This document shows positions 1,715-17,499 of a stretch of 33,113 nucleotides of DNA, in pieces. How positions within the stretch are numbered: the stretch's first letter is position 1; each line of letters opens with the position of its first letter. The DNA comes from Acidiferrobacteraceae bacterium (GTDB lineage: Bacteria > Pseudomonadota > Gammaproteobacteria > Acidiferrobacterales > Acidiferrobacteraceae): positions 1 through 33,113 of the forward strand of contig DAHWKH010000104.1 of assembly GCA_027343725.1 (NCBI GenBank), in the 5' to 3' direction. The notes under the pieces were generated by a model. It saw only the letters and a list, made by a program, of their open reading frames with translations, made no database searches and had not been told where the DNA came from. The translations under genes and the position numbers were made by a program.

Positions 1715-1743
1715 TTGACAAACCGCAGAGCCTTCCCTTTAAT
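1715..1743 (+). promoter_or_regulatory. Sigma70-like promoter: TTGACA-N17-TTTAAT
   Basis: Perfect -35 TTGACA at 1715-1720, 17-bp spacer, -10 TTTAAT at 1738-1743. Confidence 0.65.
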
Positions 1744-1750
1744 GCCGGGC

Positions 1751-2719
1751 ATGGACAACGGCACCGAAAGAGACGCAGGACACAGGCCCGAGGTGCTGGT
1801 CGAGGCGGTGGGCCTGACACGCGTCTACGGACGGGTCCCGGCGGTAAGCGACGTGAGCTTCGTGATCCGTCGCGGCGAGGTCCTCGGGTTTCTCGGGCCG
1901 AACGGGGCGGGCAAGACCACGACCATGCAGATGCTGAGCGGGAACCTGGCGCCGACCTCCGGTCGGGTCCTGATCGGCGGCCACGACATGATGAGCGAGC
2001 CGAAGCGCGCGAAGGCCGCCCTCGGGTACCTGCCCGAGATCCCGCCTTTGTACCGGGAGCTCACGGTCGACGAATACCTCGATTACTGCGCGGCGCTGCA
2101 CCGCGTCCCGCGCCCCGACCGGACGCGTTTGCGCGAGCGCGCCAAGGCGCGCTGCGGGCTCAGTGAGGTCGGCAAACGCCTGACCGCGAACCTGTCGAAG
2201 GGATACCAGCAGCGCGTGGGGCTCGCCCAGGCGATCCTCCACGAACCGCCGGTGGTGATCCTGGATGAGCCGACCATCGGCCTCGATCCGATCCAGATCC
2301 GCGAGGTGCGCCGCCTCATCCGGGACCTCGGCCGCGAACACGCGGTGATCCTGTCGACCCACATCCTGCCCGAGGTCCAGGCGAGTTGCGATCGCGTCCA
2401 GATCATTCACAAGGGACGGCTCATCCTGAGCGAGACCATCGGCGATCTGGAGCGCCGCTCGCAGTCGCGGGTCCTGATGGTGGCCTTCCATCGCGCCCCC
2501 GACACGGCGCGCATCGCGGAACTCGCGGGCGTGCAATCGGTCACAAGTATGGGCGATCACCGCCTGCGGCTCTTTCATGACCCGGACCAGGACCCGACGG
2601 AGGCGCTCATGCGATTGTCCATGACCGAGGATTGGGGCCTGCGTGAAGTGACCCCCGAAACCTCGTCTCTCGAAAACCTCTTCGTCGAATTGACCGGCGA
2701 ACAATCGGCAAACCCATGA
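1751..2719 (+). CDS. ABC transporter ATP-binding protein, GldA-like
   Basis: Walker A GPNGAGKTT, signature LSKGYQQRVGLAQA, Walker B VVILDEPTIGLDP, H-loop STHI. The ORF track starts at TTG 1715, but that codon is the -35 box; ATG 1751 is preferred. Confidence 0.92.
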   Translation: MDNGTERDAGHRPEVLVEAVGLTRVYGRVPAVSDVSFVIRRGEVLGFLGPNGAGKTTTMQMLSGNLAPTSGRVLIGGHDMMSEPKRAKAALGYLPEIPPLYRELTVDEYLDYCAALHRVPRPDRTRLRERAKARCGLSEVGKRLTANLSKGYQQRVGLAQAILHEPPVVILDEPTIGLDPIQIREVRRLIRDLGREHAVILSTHILPEVQASCDRVQIIHKGRLILSETIGDLERRSQSRVLMVAFHRAPDTARIAELAGVQSVTSMGDHRLRLFHDPDQDPTEALMRLSMTEDWGLREVTPETSSLENLFVELTGEQSANP

Positions 2720-3471
2720 TTCGCACAATCGCCTGGCGGGAATTTCGCAGCCTCTTTTTGTCGCCGCTCGCGTTCGTGATCCTCGCGGTCACGCAACTCA
2801 TCCTCGCGCGCCTGTTTCTCGCGCACGTCAATCTTTTTCTGATGGTCGAATCCCGCCTGCCGACGCTGCCCAATCCGCCGGGGCTCACGACCCTGGTGGC
2901 GGCCCCTCTGCTCGGCAACGTCGGGGTCCTGCTGTTGCTGATCATCGCCCCGCTTGCGACCATGCGGCTGGTGGCCGACGAACGCCACAACAAGACCCTG
3001 CCCCTGCTCTTTTCGGCGCCCATCAGCATGCGCGACATCGTGCTCGGCAAATATCTCGGCGTGCTCGGGTTTTTTCTCGTGATCACGGCGCTCGCGCTCG
3101 CGATGCCGCTTGCGCTTCTGATCGGCGGGCACCTGGACTTCGGCATGCTCGCGTGCGGGCTTCTGGGGCTCGTGTTGCTGGCCGCGGCGCTCGCGGCCGT
3201 GGGGCTTTTCGTATCGACGCTCACGCAATACCCGGCGGTCGCCGTCATGGGGACCTTCGGGATCCTGTTCCTGTTGTGGATCCTCGGCTATGCGAACAGC
3301 GGCCACGGGCTCGGCCGGCGGATCGTCGCGACGCTGTCGATCGTCGATCATTACGAGCCGTTCCTGCGCGGTCTCTTCAGCACCGCTAACGTCGTGTACT
3401 ACCTCGTGTTGACGCTCACCTGCCTCTTGTTCGCCGTGCGCAAACTCGAGAGTGAGCGGGTGGGGGCGTGA
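2716..3471 (+). CDS. ABC-2 type permease, GldF-like
   Basis: Multiple TM helices; 4-nt overlap with the upstream ATPase; motif RLVADERHNKTLPLLFSAPIS typical of ABC-2 permeases. Confidence 0.88.
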   Translation: MIRTIAWREFRSLFLSPLAFVILAVTQLILARLFLAHVNLFLMVESRLPTLPNPPGLTTLVAAPLLGNVGVLLLLIIAPLATMRLVADERHNKTLPLLFSAPISMRDIVLGKYLGVLGFFLVITALALAMPLALLIGGHLDFGMLACGLLGLVLLAAALAAVGLFVSTLTQYPAVAVMGTFGILFLLWILGYANSGHGLGRRIVATLSIVDHYEPFLRGLFSTANVVYYLVLTLTCLLFAVRKLESERVGA

Positions 3472-4802
3472 TAGTGCGCTCGCGGATCCTCACCTGGGGC
3501 AGCCAAGGGGCCTTCGTGCTCCTCTGGCTTGCCATCGCAACGCTCGTGGTCGCGATCGGCGAGCGCTACCGCTACACCGCCGACTGGACCGCGAACGGTC
3601 GCAACAGCCTCAGCGCGCCCTCGGTCGCGATCGTCAAGGCCTTGCGGGGACCTGTCCGCGTCGACGCCTTCGTGCACGGGGGCGCCAAACAGCGCGCGAT
3701 CCGCGCCCTGATCGCCAAATACCGGCGCGTGGACCCGCGCATCCGTTTGACCTTCGTGAACCCGAACAAACACCCGGCGCGCGTGCGGCGCGTCGGCATC
3801 ACCTTCAACGGCGAACTGCAGATTCATTACGGCAAGCGCGCGGCCCTGGTTTTGAGCCCGACCGAGATCGGCATCACCAATCAACTCGCGCGCCTCGAGC
3901 GGACCGGCCTGCAACGCATCACCTTCCTGACCGGCAACGGCGAGCGCGGCATCACGAACGCCGGTCCCTTGGGTCTGTCCTCCTGGGCGCACCAGTTGCG
4001 CGCCCGCGGCCTCCGGGTCACGACCTTCGACATCGCCTCGGGACACGCGCTCACGCCCGCCGCGGGGGTGCTCGTGATCGCCGATCCGCGCGCGCCGTTC
4101 CTGGCGGGCGAGCGCAAGATGCTGGTTCGGTATCTCGCCTCCGGCGGCAGCCTCCTGTGGCTCTTCGAGCCCGGCCACACCGATGGCCTTGGCGCCCTCA
4201 TGCGGCCGTTCGGCATCGGCGTGCGCACGGGCTTCGCGGTCGACCCGACGTCGAGCCTCCTGACCGGCGAGAGCCCGGGGTTCATCGCCGTCACCCATTA
4301 TCCGAACCAGGACCTCGTGCGCGGCATGCACCTCGTGACCGTGTTCCCGAGCGCCGCGGCCCTCACCCTGAAGCCCGTGAACGGGGTGAAGGCAACGCCC
4401 ATTCTCCAAACGGACAGCGGCGCCTGGGTTCAACACCGCCCGCTCAAGGGCCTCATCCGACCGAAGCCCGGCACGAAGACCGGCGCCTTGACGCTCGGGG
4501 TCGCATTGACGCGCCCCGTACGGCCGTCGTCGCGGCAGCGGATCGTGGCGATCGGCGACAGCGACTTCGTCTCCAACGCCTACCTCGGGGAAGGCGGCAA
4601 CATGACGCTCGCCATGAACGCCGCCAACTGGCTTACGCATGACGACGCGTTCATCAACGTCCCGAACCGCCCCTCGCCCGACCTCACCCTCATCCTGACG
4701 GCCCCCGAGGAGGACGTGATCACCTTCGGTTTCCTGGTGATCCTGCCGCTCGCGTTCGCGGGTCTGGGCATCGCCACCTGGTGGCGCAGGCGGCGGCTGT
4801 GA
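3468..4802 (+). CDS. GldG-like ABC transporter auxiliary protein
   Basis: N-terminal TM, YTADWTANGRNSLS motif, GNGERGI segment, C-terminal TM; overlaps the permease by 4 nt. Confidence 0.85.
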   Translation: MIVRSRILTWGSQGAFVLLWLAIATLVVAIGERYRYTADWTANGRNSLSAPSVAIVKALRGPVRVDAFVHGGAKQRAIRALIAKYRRVDPRIRLTFVNPNKHPARVRRVGITFNGELQIHYGKRAALVLSPTEIGITNQLARLERTGLQRITFLTGNGERGITNAGPLGLSSWAHQLRARGLRVTTFDIASGHALTPAAGVLVIADPRAPFLAGERKMLVRYLASGGSLLWLFEPGHTDGLGALMRPFGIGVRTGFAVDPTSSLLTGESPGFIAVTHYPNQDLVRGMHLVTVFPSAAALTLKPVNGVKATPILQTDSGAWVQHRPLKGLIRPKPGTKTGALTLGVALTRPVRPSSRQRIVAIGDSDFVSNAYLGEGGNMTLAMNAANWLTHDDAFINVPNRPSPDLTLILTAPEEDVITFGFLVILPLAFAGLGIATWWRRRRL

Positions 4803-11170: not shown

Positions 11171-12142
11171 ATGGCGCTCTTTCGAAAGTCAGAGGGCGAA
11201 AAACCAAGCGACAAGCCGGGGGTCTTCGCGCGTTTCAGCGAGCGCTTGGCGGGCACGCGCCAGGCCTTCGGCCAAAACGTGGGGAAGCTCTTGCGACGGC
11301 GGCGCCCGCTCGACGCCTCCCTCCTGGAGGAGCTCGAAACGGCCCTGATCGCCGCCGATCTCGGGGTGGGCACGACGGAATCGGTCATGTCCGAAATCCA
11401 AAAACGCATATCCCGCCACGGCTTATCGGACGCGCCCGCGGTCTATACCACGCTGAAACAGATCCTCTACGAGATCGTGCGCCCCGCCGAGCGCCCGTGG
11501 CCCAAGGCCCACAGCCCCGAGGTCGTGCTCCTGGTCGGGGTGAACGGGGCCGGCAAGACCACGACCGTCGGCAAGCTGTGCGCGCGCCTTCACGGCGAGG
11601 GCCAACGGGTCATGGTCGCGGCCGCCGACACCTTTCGGGCCGCGGCCATCGAGCAACTCGCGGCCTGGGCCGAGCGCACCGGCGCCGAGATCATCAGCCA
11701 GCCGCGCGGCGCGGACGCCGCCGCGGTTGCCCACGACGCGCTGGCCGCGGCGCGCGCACGCTCCGTGGATACGCTCCTGATCGACAGCGCCGGGCGCCTC
11801 CACACCCAGACGGGCCTCATGGACGAGCTCGCGAAGATCAAGCGCGTGCTCGCGCGCATCGACCCCGAAAGCCCCCACGAGGTGATCCTGGTGCTGGACG
11901 CCGGTATCGGCCAGAACGCGCTCGCGCAGCTCGAGCATTTCCACAAGGCGATCGGGGTGACGGGCTTGTGCGTCACCAAGCTCGACGGGACGGCCAAGGG
12001 CGGGGTCGTGTTCGCGCTCGCGCAACGCTACGGGCTGCCGATCTATTTCGTGGGCCTGGGCGAGGCCGCCGACGATTTGCGGCCGTTCGAGGCGCGGGCG
12101 TTCGTCGAGGCGCTCCTGCCGGCGGACGAGGAGGCCGCGTGA
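11171..12142 (+). CDS. ftsY: Signal recognition particle receptor FtsY
   Basis: LLVGVNGAGKTTTVGKLCA, DTFRAAAIEQL, DSAGRL, TKLDGTAKGGV, YFVGLGEAADDLRPF. Confidence 0.97.
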   Translation: MALFRKSEGEKPSDKPGVFARFSERLAGTRQAFGQNVGKLLRRRRPLDASLLEELETALIAADLGVGTTESVMSEIQKRISRHGLSDAPAVYTTLKQILYEIVRPAERPWPKAHSPEVVLLVGVNGAGKTTTVGKLCARLHGEGQRVMVAAADTFRAAAIEQLAAWAERTGAEIISQPRGADAAAVAHDALAAARARSVDTLLIDSAGRLHTQTGLMDELAKIKRVLARIDPESPHEVILVLDAGIGQNALAQLEHFHKAIGVTGLCVTKLDGTAKGGVVFALAQRYGLPIYFVGLGEAADDLRPFEARAFVEALLPADEEAA

Positions 12143-12798
12143 TCGAGTGCCAGCACGTCTTCAAGCGCTACCCGGGCGGCAACGAGGCCCTGAGCGACGT
12201 GAGCTTCATGCTCGAAGCCGGGGAAATGGCCTTCCTCACCGGGCACTCGGGCGCCGGCAAGAGCACCTTGCTCAAGCTCATCAGCCTGATCGAGCGCCCG
12301 ACCCGCGGCCAGATCATCGTCAACAATCACAACCTCGGGCGGCTCCCCCCGCGGCGCACGCCCCGGTTCCGCCGCCAGATCGGTGTCGTGTTCCAGGACA
12401 ACAAACTCCTGAACGACCGCACCGTGTTCGACAACGTCGCCCTGCCGCTGGTCGTGGCCGGCGTCACCGGAGACGAGATCCGCAAGCGGGTCCAGGCCGC
12501 GCTCGACAAGGTCGGCTTGCTCGCGCGCGCGCGCAGCCACCCGCTGATGCTGTCCGGGGGCGAGCAGCAGCGCGTCGGCATTGCCCGCGCCATCGCCCAT
12601 CGCCCATCGCTCCTGATCGCGGACGAACCGACCGGCAACCTCGACGCCGCGATGTCCGATGAGATCATCGATCTGTTTCGGGACTTCAACGATCACGGGG
12701 TGACGGTCCTCATCGCCACCCACGACTGGCGCCATATCGCGCGCTGCCAAAAGCGCGTGATCGAGCTCGGCGCGGGCCATCTGGTGACGGCGGCATGA
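12139..12798 (+). CDS. ftsE: Cell division ATP-binding protein FtsE
   Basis: GTG start at 12139 overlapping ftsY. MIECQHVFKRYPGGNEAL, GHSGAGKSTLLKLI, LSGGEQQRVGIARA, LLIADEPTGNLD. Confidence 0.96.
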   Translation: MIECQHVFKRYPGGNEALSDVSFMLEAGEMAFLTGHSGAGKSTLLKLISLIERPTRGQIIVNNHNLGRLPPRRTPRFRRQIGVVFQDNKLLNDRTVFDNVALPLVVAGVTGDEIRKRVQAALDKVGLLARARSHPLMLSGGEQQRVGIARAIAHRPSLLIADEPTGNLDAAMSDEIIDLFRDFNDHGVTVLIATHDWRHIARCQKRVIELGAGHLVTAA

Positions 12799-13691
12799 AG
12801 GGCTACCTCGCGCGTCACGCCCAGGTCCTCGTGGCGACTCTCGGTCAGTTCGCGCGCCACCCGGCCGCGACCGCCGCTACCATCCTCATGATCGGCGTCA
12901 CCATCGCCCTGCCGACGGGGCTGTACGTGGGGCTCCACAATCTCGAGCGCTTGAGCCACGGCTGGCACCGCGGCGACGGGCTCACGGTCTACCTCCACCG
13001 GGGCCGCAGCGATGCGCGCGCGCTCGCGGCCATCCGCCGCCTGCCGGGGGTGCGCGCGGTCCGCTACACCTCCCCGCAAAAGGGCTTGGCGGAGTTCGAG
13101 CGGCGCTCGGGGTTCGGGAAGGTCCTCACGGTCTTGCGCCATAACCCCTTGCCCGGGGTCGTCACCGTGAGCCTGCGCGGCGCAAGCCCTGCGCGCTTGC
13201 ACACGCTCGCGGCCACTCTACGGCGGCTGCCGGATGTCGGGCACGTGCAGTCCAACCGCCTGTGGCTCGAGCGCCTGAACGCGACCTTACGGCTCGGTCG
13301 GCGCCTGGTCATGATCCTCGCGGTCCTGCTCGGATTGGCGCTCGTCTTGATCCTCGGCAACACCACGCGGGTCGCGGTCGCGAACCGAGCGGACGAAATT
13401 GAGGTCATACGCCTTGTCGGGGGGACCGACGCCTTCATACGCCGGCCCTTCCTGTACACGGGCGCCCTCATCGGCGCCTTCGGGGCGCTGTGCGCCTGGG
13501 CGCTCATCACGCTCGGTCTGGCCGTGCTGTCGGGGCCGGTCCAAAGGCTCGACACCCTGTACGCGAGCCATTACGGGCTTGTGGGGCTTGGTGGCGGCAG
13601 CGCCCTGCGTCTCGTGCTCCTGTGCGCGGCGCTCGGGTGGCTCGGGGCGCGCTTGGCCGTCGGCCGCAGGCTCGCCCGCGGCCGCGCCTGA
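12795..13691 (+). CDS. ftsX: Cell division protein FtsX
   Basis: Overlaps ftsE; four-TM FtsX topology; NTTRVAVANRADEIEVIRLVGGTDAFIRRPFLYTG. Confidence 0.95.
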   Translation: MKGYLARHAQVLVATLGQFARHPAATAATILMIGVTIALPTGLYVGLHNLERLSHGWHRGDGLTVYLHRGRSDARALAAIRRLPGVRAVRYTSPQKGLAEFERRSGFGKVLTVLRHNPLPGVVTVSLRGASPARLHTLAATLRRLPDVGHVQSNRLWLERLNATLRLGRRLVMILAVLLGLALVLILGNTTRVAVANRADEIEVIRLVGGTDAFIRRPFLYTGALIGAFGALCAWALITLGLAVLSGPVQRLDTLYASHYGLVGLGGGSALRLVLLCAALGWLGARLAVGRRLARGRA

Positions 13692-13717
13692 AGCAGCCCG
13701 GGGAACTTTCCGAAAAA

Positions 13718-13744
13718 TTAGCACTCTCAGCCAGAGAATGCTAA
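13718..13744 (+). promoter_or_regulatory. CIRCE-like HrcA operator: TTAGCACTC-N9-GAATGCTAA
   Basis: Matches TTAGCACTC-N9-GAGTGCTAA with a single mismatch in the right arm. Confidence 0.82.
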
Positions 13745-13747
13745 AAT
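13718..13747 (+). promoter_or_regulatory. Candidate sigma70 promoter of rpoH overlapping the CIRCE element
   Basis: -35 TTAGCA (13718-13723), 18-bp spacer, extended -10 TGCTAAAAT (13739-13747). Confidence 0.6.
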
Positions 13748-13783
13748 CGCATCGCCGATATGGACAGTCGAAGGGGGTAATTC

Positions 13784-14653
13784 ATGACCACACAGACTCT
13801 GGCTATCGCTACGAACCTGCGCGCGGAGGGGGGGCTTGCCGGTTACCTCCGGCTGGCCCACGAGGCCCCCGTACTGAACGCCGAGCAGGAACGGGCGCTG
13901 GCCGTCGAGTACCGCGAGCACGACAACCTGGACGCGGCGCGCAGACTCGTGGTCTCGCACCTGCGCTATGTGGTGCGGGTCGCGCGCGCCTTTACCGGTT
14001 ACGGCCTGCCCCAGGCGGACCTCATCCAGGAAGGAAATATCGGCCTTATGAAGGCCGTCAAGCACTTCGACCCGAGCCACGGCGTGCGGCTGGTGTCGTT
14101 CGCCATCCATTGGATCCGCGCCGAGATCTACGACTACATCCTCCGGAACTGGCGCATCGTGAAGGTCGCGACCACCAAGGCGCAACGCAAGCTGTTCTTT
14201 AACCTGCGGCAGTCGCGCGCGCGCATCGGGTGGATGAACGAGTCGGAAATCGCTGGACTCGCCGCCGACCTCGACGTGCCCGAGGGGACCGTCAAAGAGA
14301 TGGAGTCCCGCATGGCCAGCGTCGATGTCCCATTCGACAGCCATGACGACGCTGACGATGAGGAATTCCACGCCTCGCCGGCGGGCTTCCTGCAGGATCT
14401 GCGTTACGACCCCGAGACCCTTCTCGCGCGCGCCGATGCCGAGGCCGTCCAGCAAGACCGGTTGCAGAACGCCCTGGTGTCGCTCGACGACCGCAGCCGC
14501 GATATCATTCGGCGCCGGTGGCTTGCGGCGGACAAGCCGACCCTGCATGAGCTGGCCACGGAATACGGGGTGTCGGCGGAACGCATCCGCCAGATCGAAA
14601 AGAAGGCACTCGATACCATGAAGGGCGTGCTGACGCTCCCGGAGCCGGCTTAA
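13784..14653 (+). CDS. rpoH: RNA polymerase heat-shock sigma factor (sigma32)
   Basis: RpoH-box-like segment AQRKLFFNLRQ; region 2 YVVRVARAFTGYGLPQADLIQEGNIGLMKAVKHFDPSHGVRLVSFAIHWIRAEI; region 4 TLHELATEYGVSAERIRQIEKKAL. Confidence 0.96.
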   Translation: MTTQTLAIATNLRAEGGLAGYLRLAHEAPVLNAEQERALAVEYREHDNLDAARRLVVSHLRYVVRVARAFTGYGLPQADLIQEGNIGLMKAVKHFDPSHGVRLVSFAIHWIRAEIYDYILRNWRIVKVATTKAQRKLFFNLRQSRARIGWMNESEIAGLAADLDVPEGTVKEMESRMASVDVPFDSHDDADDEEFHASPAGFLQDLRYDPETLLARADAEAVQQDRLQNALVSLDDRSRDIIRRRWLAADKPTLHELATEYGVSAERIRQIEKKALDTMKGVLTLPEPA

Positions 14654-15249
14654 GCCGACACCCGCTTGTGCGCCGCCGGGATCTGGCGCGCGGGATTGCC
14701 GAGCACCGTCGCATCGTCCGGGACCGGCACGATGACTACGGCCCCCATGCCGACGACGCAGCGCGCGCCCACGTCGGCGCCGATAAGGGCGCCCTCCCCG
14801 ATCCAGCTTTGGGCCCCGATGGTCACCCGCTCGATACGGTCCGGGCCGCCGACGCCGCCGGCATCGCCGTGGTGGTGGAGGCCCGAGGTGATCGACACGC
14901 GGCTTGCGATCCGCACCCCGGGACCGATGTCGGCAAGACCGATCACGCAGTAGGCGCCGATGCCGCTGCCCTCGGCGACGCGCGCGCCGCGCTTGGAAAA
15001 ATAACTCCCGAAATGCACCGCGGCGTCCGGCGCGAACCGCGCCAGGGTGTGGCGGTAGTAGGCCGCGCGCGCCGCGTTGCCGATGACCCCCGGGACGAGA
15101 GCCAGGCTCTGGCCGCCCAGGACAAAGACCGTGTCGCGTGGGCGATCGCGTGGTTCGCATTTCGCGATCAGGATAAAGGGGAGCGCCAGGATCACCCCCA
15201 GGGCCCTGAGGCCCGCCCGTATCCCCCGGCGCGATAGCGGGACATGCAT
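14650..15249 (-). CDS. Left-handed beta-helix (hexapeptide repeat) acyltransferase
   Basis: GSGIGAYCVIGLADIGPGVRIASRVSITSGLHHH...VTIGAQSWIGEGALIGADVGARCVVGMGAVV...GNPARQI. ATG at 15249 overlaps the upstream stop. Confidence 0.88.
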   Translation of the reverse strand: MHVPLSRRGIRAGLRALGVILALPFILIAKCEPRDRPRDTVFVLGGQSLALVPGVIGNAARAAYYRHTLARFAPDAAVHFGSYFSKRGARVAEGSGIGAYCVIGLADIGPGVRIASRVSITSGLHHHGDAGGVGGPDRIERVTIGAQSWIGEGALIGADVGARCVVGMGAVVIVPVPDDATVLGNPARQIPAAHKRVSA

Positions 15250-16311: not shown

Positions 16312-17499
16312 TCAAGCCGCCGTCACGAGATCGCGCAGCGCCCGCCCCACGAGGTCCTCGGCCCGTTTGAGCCCATGCTGGCAGCAACAGGCGTAGAGCA
16401 GGCGCTCGAGACCGAAGGCCGCGCACCCCGAGTGGGCGGGTTCCCCGCCACTGGCGTGGATCGCAAAGCGGCTGCCGAAAAACCGCTCGTGATAATTGAA
16501 CGAGGCGCAGGCGATGGCGGTCTCGGGGGCCACGTCCACCTTGAGTTCGTATTTCAAATCATTGGCGAGCTGAAAAAACCGCAGCGCGGGGAAATCCCCG
16601 GCGAAAAACGGGTCACACGCCGTTTCCAGGCGCGCCGACAAATCCAGGGCCTCGACCCACCACCAGGCGAGATCGAGGGCGCGCTCGCGCGCGGCCAACA
16701 CCTGCGCGCGCTCCCCCAGCCAGACGATCTCGCGCAGGGAGAACTCCCAGAGTCGGTCAAGACCGGTGAGGTTTTTCGATTCGTACCGAAAACACCGTCC
16801 CACACCCGTATAGGCGGCGAGCGCCGCCGGGAGGCGGCTATTCATCAGGGCGCCGTAGGTGTGATAACAGACGGCGGGCGATAGGCAGTGCTCGGGTGGG
16901 GCGATGTCCTCGAGACGCGCGAAGGTCACGTCCTCACCGTGGCGGTGGCGCTCGGCGAACGCCTCCAGGGCGCCGTAATCCTCGTGCAAGTGCACGGCGA
17001 AGGTCACCGAGTGCGAGAACGACCCGAAATATCCCGCGCGCTGCAGCCAGGCGCTCGGGAGAAGGGCATTGTAGGCGTGGACCGCCGCCTGAAAGCGCGT
17101 CACCGCCTGCCGCTCGAGCGCCGCGTCCAGATCCGCCAAGAGCCGCATGAAGGCGCCGCCGCGGGCGACCGCCCCGGCCCCCGACGGCCAGATGTCGCCG
17201 CGCTCTTGCAGCTGCTGATAGGCATCCGCGACGAAGCCCGGGCGCGCGCGCCGGCGCTCCCGCAGGACCCGTGGGGTCACGGTCAAGCGCTCGCCCTGCA
17301 TCTTTGTGATGAGTTGCGCCACCTTGTCGGCGACCGCGGCACTCGGGCGAGTGTCGTCGAGGGCGAGCTCGAGGCATTGGGATTCGGGGCGATAGCGGGA
17401 GCCCTGAATCGCGCGATCGCAATAACAGGCGCGCTTGCCGATTTCCGTACAGACGTCCGCCGGGAGATGGGCGGGTAAAGGGATTGCGAGTGTTTCCAT
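16312..17499 (-). CDS. Class II aminoacyl-tRNA-synthetase-like protein; amino acid:[carrier protein] ligase homologue (SerRS-like catalytic core without tRNA-binding arm)
   Basis: Motif-2-like GVGRCFRYESKNLTGLDRLWEFSLREIVWLG; motif-3-like SGCAAFGLERLLYACCCQHG. Only 395 aa, with no SerRS coiled-coil arm. Confidence 0.78.
   Translation of the reverse strand: METLAIPLPAHLPADVCTEIGKRACYCDRAIQGSRYRPESQCLELALDDTRPSAAVADKVAQLITKMQGERLTVTPRVLRERRRARPGFVADAYQQLQERGDIWPSGAGAVARGGAFMRLLADLDAALERQAVTRFQAAVHAYNALLPSAWLQRAGYFGSFSHSVTFAVHLHEDYGALEAFAERHRHGEDVTFARLEDIAPPEHCLSPAVCYHTYGALMNSRLPAALAAYTGVGRCFRYESKNLTGLDRLWEFSLREIVWLGERAQVLAARERALDLAWWWVEALDLSARLETACDPFFAGDFPALRFFQLANDLKYELKVDVAPETAIACASFNYHERFFGSRFAIHASGGEPAHSGCAAFGLERLLYACCCQHGLKRAEDLVGRALRDLVTAA

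Follow-up and report, generated by a model that had tools for sequence, protein, structure and literature searches.

A CIRCE operator coinciding with the rpoH promoter in Acidiferrobacteraceae and other Gammaproteobacteria, and the predicted control of sigma32 synthesis by HrcA

The rpoH locus and its promoter region

The window, by which we mean the whole stretch of 33,113 nucleotides of Acidiferrobacteraceae DNA analysed here, contains the gene order ftsY-ftsE-ftsX-rpoH, and the features of this locus are listed in Table 1. The last of the four genes was identified as that of the heat-shock sigma factor by a full-length match to TIGR02392 (370.4 bits versus a cut-off of 323.1). At a distance of 39 bp before rpoH lies the inverted repeat TTAGCACTC-TCAGCCAGA-GAATGCTAA (13718-13744, plus strand, 9-bp spacer), which deviates from the CIRCE consensus TTAGCACTC-N9-GAGTGCTAA at a single position (GAGTG to GAATG). 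It is the sole CIRCE match with three or fewer mismatches in the window, where dinucleotide shuffles gave a mean of 0.01, and by a simple calculation 2.7e-5 sites with at most one mismatch would be expected in the window by chance. The repeat coincides with a promoter: in a local survey of 300 bp around the rpoH start (13550-13850), TTAGCA-N18-TAAAAT with an extended TG (13718-13747) was the only sigma70-like promoter, and none was seen in shuffles. An earlier note made from the letters of this DNA had described a CIRCE one position off consensus overlapping such a promoter, and both parts of that description were borne out.

Table 1. Features of the rpoH locus in the window
Feature	Positions	Strand	Basis
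ftsY	11171..12142	+	TIGR00064
ftsE, start approximate (from domain match)	12139..12798	+	TIGR02673
ftsX, directly upstream of rpoH, same strand	12795..13691	+	TIGR00439
CIRCE operator TTAGCACTC-N9-GAATGCTAA, predicted HrcA binding site	13718..13744	+	1 mismatch; class-wide conservation
-35 hexamer TTAGCA, equal to the outer end of the left CIRCE arm	13718..13723	+	
Extended -10 TG, within the right CIRCE arm	13739..13740	+	
-10 hexamer TAAAAT, its first 3 bases being the end of the right CIRCE arm	13742..13747	+	
RBS-like stretch AAGGGGG in the short 5' leader	13771..13777	+	Sequence, inferred
rpoH, heat-shock sigma factor sigma32, 289 aa	13784..14653	+	TIGR02392 370 bits, NF005143 391 bits

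The same note had called the site near-perfect, which is a fair label given that all 17 rpoH sites from the window's family (L031-L047) carry GAATGCTAA with the identical G-to-A change in the right arm. This uniformity marks the change as a lineage trait rather than a sequencing error, and the rpoH operator of this family is possibly a tuned, weaker one. Within these sites the inner letters T[C/T]...GA extend the palindrome by about 2 bases, and the middle is variable. Taken as a whole and with repression by HrcA included, the explanation that we hold to be highly probable is that the site is a genuine CIRCE and that the rpoH sigma70 promoter takes its -35 region and its extended -10 from the two arms.

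An RNA thermometer of the E. coli type at rpoH is unsupported in the window, as positions 13600-14700 matched no Rfam family and the putative leader together with the early coding region, counted from an assumed transcript start, folded with a z of 0.55 relative to shuffles. Further rpoH promoters may lie upstream, inside ftsX, the promoter scan having covered 13550-13850.

Elsewhere in the window, positions 16312-17499 (minus strand) encode a protein resembling both an amino acid--[acyl-carrier-protein] ligase and an atypical seryl-tRNA synthetase core, with scores below the curated cut-offs. A GldA-like ABC transporter ATPase (1715-2716, plus strand) and a GldG-like protein (3468-4799, plus strand), likewise below cut-off, were seen here outside the usual gliding bacteria.

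CIRCE sites and hrcA from genome to phylum

The window's assembly (1.86 Mb, 86% complete) holds exactly two CIRCE sites, one before rpoH and one before groESL. The earlier note had made its prediction depend on an hrcA gene in this genome; the assembly, 86% complete, yielded neither hrcA nor grpE, which suggests a gap. The two genes are adjacent in G005, a complete genome of the same genus, with grpE directly after hrcA, and hrcA is present in 12 of 13 same-genus genomes, the one exception (G006) being without grpE as well. Since the neighbour of hrcA is missing along with it, the absence is likely an assembly gap, and we rejected it as a refutation of HrcA control.

In most genomes of the window's order we counted about three CIRCE sites, located at groESL, hrcA and rpoH, with few matches to a reversed-pattern control, and CIRCE was present in every rpoH upstream region read from the order. 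The operator thus stands directly at groESL and at hrcA-grpE-dnaK in these bacteria. Two complete or near-complete same-genus genomes also have sigma32-type promoters before dnaK and clpB, of the form CTTGAAA-N-CCCCATCT (at about position 1501 in both L377 and L379); a strict sigma32 promoter pattern had no match in the window's own assembly. One 97%-complete family member, G015 (L006, L079), gave no rpoH match and yet has hrcA and two perfect CIRCEs, which means that rpoH either fell into a gap of the assembly or was lost.

To place these observations in a broader context we sampled the Gammaproteobacteria as defined by GTDB (including the former Betaproteobacteria) with one genome per family, 140 genomes in all, locating rpoH in 131 and hrcA in 105. 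A total of 129 rpoH upstream regions were read (99 from genomes with hrcA, 30 from genomes lacking it), and CIRCE was counted at up to three mismatches. A site was found in 90 of the 99 hrcA-positive genomes and in 4 of the 30 hrcA-negative ones (Fisher p = 1e-15), the relatedness of the families meaning that they cannot be counted as wholly independent events. Mismatch counts at rpoH were bimodal (0-3 or 5-8). The chance expectation is about 2e-4 sites in a region of 700 bp. Three of the four hrcA-negative genomes with a site also lack grpE, and there hrcA was probably missed through incomplete assembly; in the fourth, G142, grpE is present but has no neighbouring hrcA, and the site is degraded. 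Nine hrcA-positive families are without a standard CIRCE at rpoH, among them one with an 8-bp-spacer variant, one with a half-site only and one whose call came from a second rpoH copy.

Full concordance (22/22) was also seen in an independent second set of gammaproteobacterial genomes, three having both hrcA and the site and 19 having neither. The rpoH CIRCE was likewise present in 72 of 79 named relatives, one betaproteobacterium included, and among named genomes hrcA was found in 14/14 with the site and 0/7 without it, the latter seven being Coxiella endosymbionts and Succinivibrionaceae or their kin. Conservation upstream of rpoH in relatives, which the earlier note had proposed to check, extends to 90 of 99 hrcA-positive families. 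The claim that HrcA controls sigma32 synthesis gains comparative support, in that the site's presence follows hrcA and the site appears to decay where hrcA was lost.

The inverted repeat might instead function at the RNA level, as a hairpin or as a terminator (a bidirectional one between ftsX and rpoH, for instance), and on the minus strand it does read as a terminator-like hairpin followed by T's. We find this scarcely credible: the arm letters themselves are conserved, compensatory changes being few and the spacer length fixed at 9 bp; ftsX is a plus-strand gene; no minus-strand gene ends at the site; and the presence of the site tracks hrcA. The spacer of the rpoH CIRCE is also non-random, with T at position 1 in 60/90 and A at position 3 in 69/90 sites. 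In one family (L307 and L310; also L208) the arms read TTAGCAGTC and GACTGCTAA (or GATTGCTAA), with matching changes in both, which suggests a shift in HrcA specificity.

Outside the class the picture differs. Among the other Pseudomonadota, rpoH CIRCE was absent from 39 of 40 upstream regions, even though hrcA was present in 14 of the 18 genomes tested for it; thus hrcA alone does not imply an rpoH site. The sole outgroup genome with a site, G222 (L372), has hrcA and a CIRCE with one mismatch, and two genomes of the same family have neither. The predicted HrcA-rpoH wiring is therefore a gammaproteobacterial trait and not a phylum-wide one, the exceptions being G222 and a published case in Geobacter.

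Fusion of operator and promoter, and decay after hrcA loss

At rpoH the third base after CIRCE, which completes a TAAnnT hexamer, is T in 80 of 90 sites across the class and in 66 of 72 sites of named relatives. Elsewhere in the order the same -10-completing base is T in 15 of 28 hrcA sites and in 0 of 13 groES sites, the latter because groES has a separate TTGACA promoter upstream of CIRCE with a TATGAT-like -10 that ends where CIRCE begins. At rpoH the operator spans the promoter from -35 to -10, an arrangement that would keep RNA polymerase out.

Lineages that lost hrcA offer a view of what becomes of this composite element. The hrcA-positive genome G303 has TTAGCAGTC-N9-GACTGCTAAGAT at rpoH; G299, of the same genus and lacking hrcA, keeps TGACTGCTAAGAT/TGCTAAGAT with a left arm broken to CTGGTCAGTC. 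In G144, also without hrcA, the site reads TTGGCACTC-TTATTTGTT-GATGCTAAAAT, the right arm having a one-base deletion and the -10 being intact (TGCTAAAAT kept). Both look like operator fossils in which the promoter was preserved, and as part of the overall explanation it is very likely that lineages losing hrcA lose the operator half and keep the promoter.

These same sequences bear on whether the motif is merely the rpoH core promoter, with TTAGCA and TGCTAAAAT kept for RNA polymerase and the likeness to CIRCE being incidental or a remnant. The outer ends of the arms are indeed the -35 and -10 elements, and genomes lacking hrcA keep the -10 part. However, the inner bases CACTC/GAGTG, which a promoter does not need, are near-invariant in the 90 hrcA-positive genomes and lost where hrcA is absent, making this reading most improbable and leaving a functional CIRCE operator as the preferred one.

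Proposed wiring, related systems and significance

What is read from sequence is the site, where it lies, how well it is conserved and how it co-occurs with hrcA; on that footing we infer a scheme of binding, direction of repression, heat response, feedback and timing, in which HrcA with high probability represses rpoH by occluding the promoter, placing sigma32 downstream of HrcA. At normal temperature HrcA, aided by GroE, would sit on CIRCE and block RNA polymerase, such that little sigma32 is made. Under protein-unfolding stress HrcA would lose DNA binding, through titration of GroE or unfolding of HrcA itself, and its release would jointly derepress rpoH, groESL and hrcA-grpE-dnaK. The newly made sigma32 would then switch on its own set of promoters, those of dnaK and clpB among them, and the feedback loop would be closed by the increasing levels of GroE and DnaK. 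Heat sensing by HrcA and its stimulation by GroE have been shown in Campylobacter jejuni (PMC8533110).

This scheme modifies the proposal in the earlier note that the two heat-shock circuits are wired in series. A serial link fits the sigma32-type promoters at dnaK and clpB, but CIRCE also stands at groESL and at hrcA-grpE-dnaK, and the combination of direct HrcA targets with indirect targets reached through sigma32 makes the predicted wiring feed-forward rather than purely serial. Both hrcA and rpoH go up in nitrogen-starved Xylella (PMC3224663), which means that other control may override HrcA at rpoH.

A broader form of that caveat is that HrcA binds at rpoH, with the site having a minor or tuning role, while other promoters and control of translation or stability dominate as they do in E. 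coli. The E. coli gene, which lies in the same ftsY-ftsE-ftsX-rpoH neighbourhood, has multiple promoters and an mRNA thermometer; the organism has no hrcA and no CIRCE, and sigma32 is controlled by DnaK, GroE and FtsH. Control of RpoH at the level of its activity is also reported for Neisseria. Such a minor role seems unlikely to us, given the one promoter-like site in the surveyed region, a leader and early coding region with neither a folding signal nor an Rfam match, and a strict tracking with hrcA that implies real selection. Repression of rpoH by HrcA thus remains our favoured explanation, and we consider it likely that an HrcA-repressed, CIRCE-built rpoH promoter is ancestral in Gammaproteobacteria, the HrcA-free control of sigma32 in enterics and pseudomonads having arisen repeatedly upon loss of hrcA and leaving decayed arms with an intact -10. 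The different rpoH control of E. coli is then probably a derived state.

The kind of arrangement described here is already known. For Geobacter sulfurreducens, Rodionov et al. 2004 (PMC545781, Table 8) predicted that a perfect CIRCE lies 51 bp upstream of rpoH, with groESL and hrcA-grpE-dnaKJ as further predicted CIRCE targets. The likeness extends to the operator, the rpoH target near the start codon (-51) and the same three targets; in contrast, Geobacter belongs to another phylum, and the site is a single-genome prediction that involved no promoter analysis and did not extend to G. metallireducens, whereas the gammaproteobacterial site is conserved across the class and fused to the core promoter. 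A repressor at an rpoH promoter is also biologically plausible from Neisseria gonorrhoeae, where MtrR represses rpoH and blocks RNA polymerase at the promoter (PMC10850145), although the MtrR operator is different and degenerate and MtrR responds to ligands such as steroids rather than to heat. With the classical HrcA/CIRCE systems of Bacillus subtilis, Agrobacterium and Campylobacter, the present one shares the operator, the repressor family and the groESL and hrcA-grpE-dnaK targets. It differs in having a sigma factor gene as a target and in an operator that makes up the -35, spacer and -10, the classical operator lying just downstream of the -10.

Apart from Geobacter, our literature search brought up no account of rpoH being controlled by HrcA; novelty at the level of the class is unproven, the work of Permina and Gelfand 2003 having stood outside that search. 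Their study, which reportedly treats beta, gamma and epsilon regulons, could contain rpoH sites already. The potentially new elements are the extent of the arrangement across the class, its close association with hrcA, the fusion with the promoter and the fossils.

The HrcA and sigma32 circuits are usually described as parallel, and the title of an Agrobacterium paper describes their roles as 'differential and independent'. If the wiring proposed here holds in most hrcA-positive Gammaproteobacteria, sigma32 would be a second-tier output and the E. coli model a derived exception, and models of the heat-shock regulon would change in many environmental, plant-associated and clinical genera. The class would moreover offer a natural experiment in regulatory rewiring, in which a repressor was lost repeatedly, its operator decayed and the promoter half was preserved.
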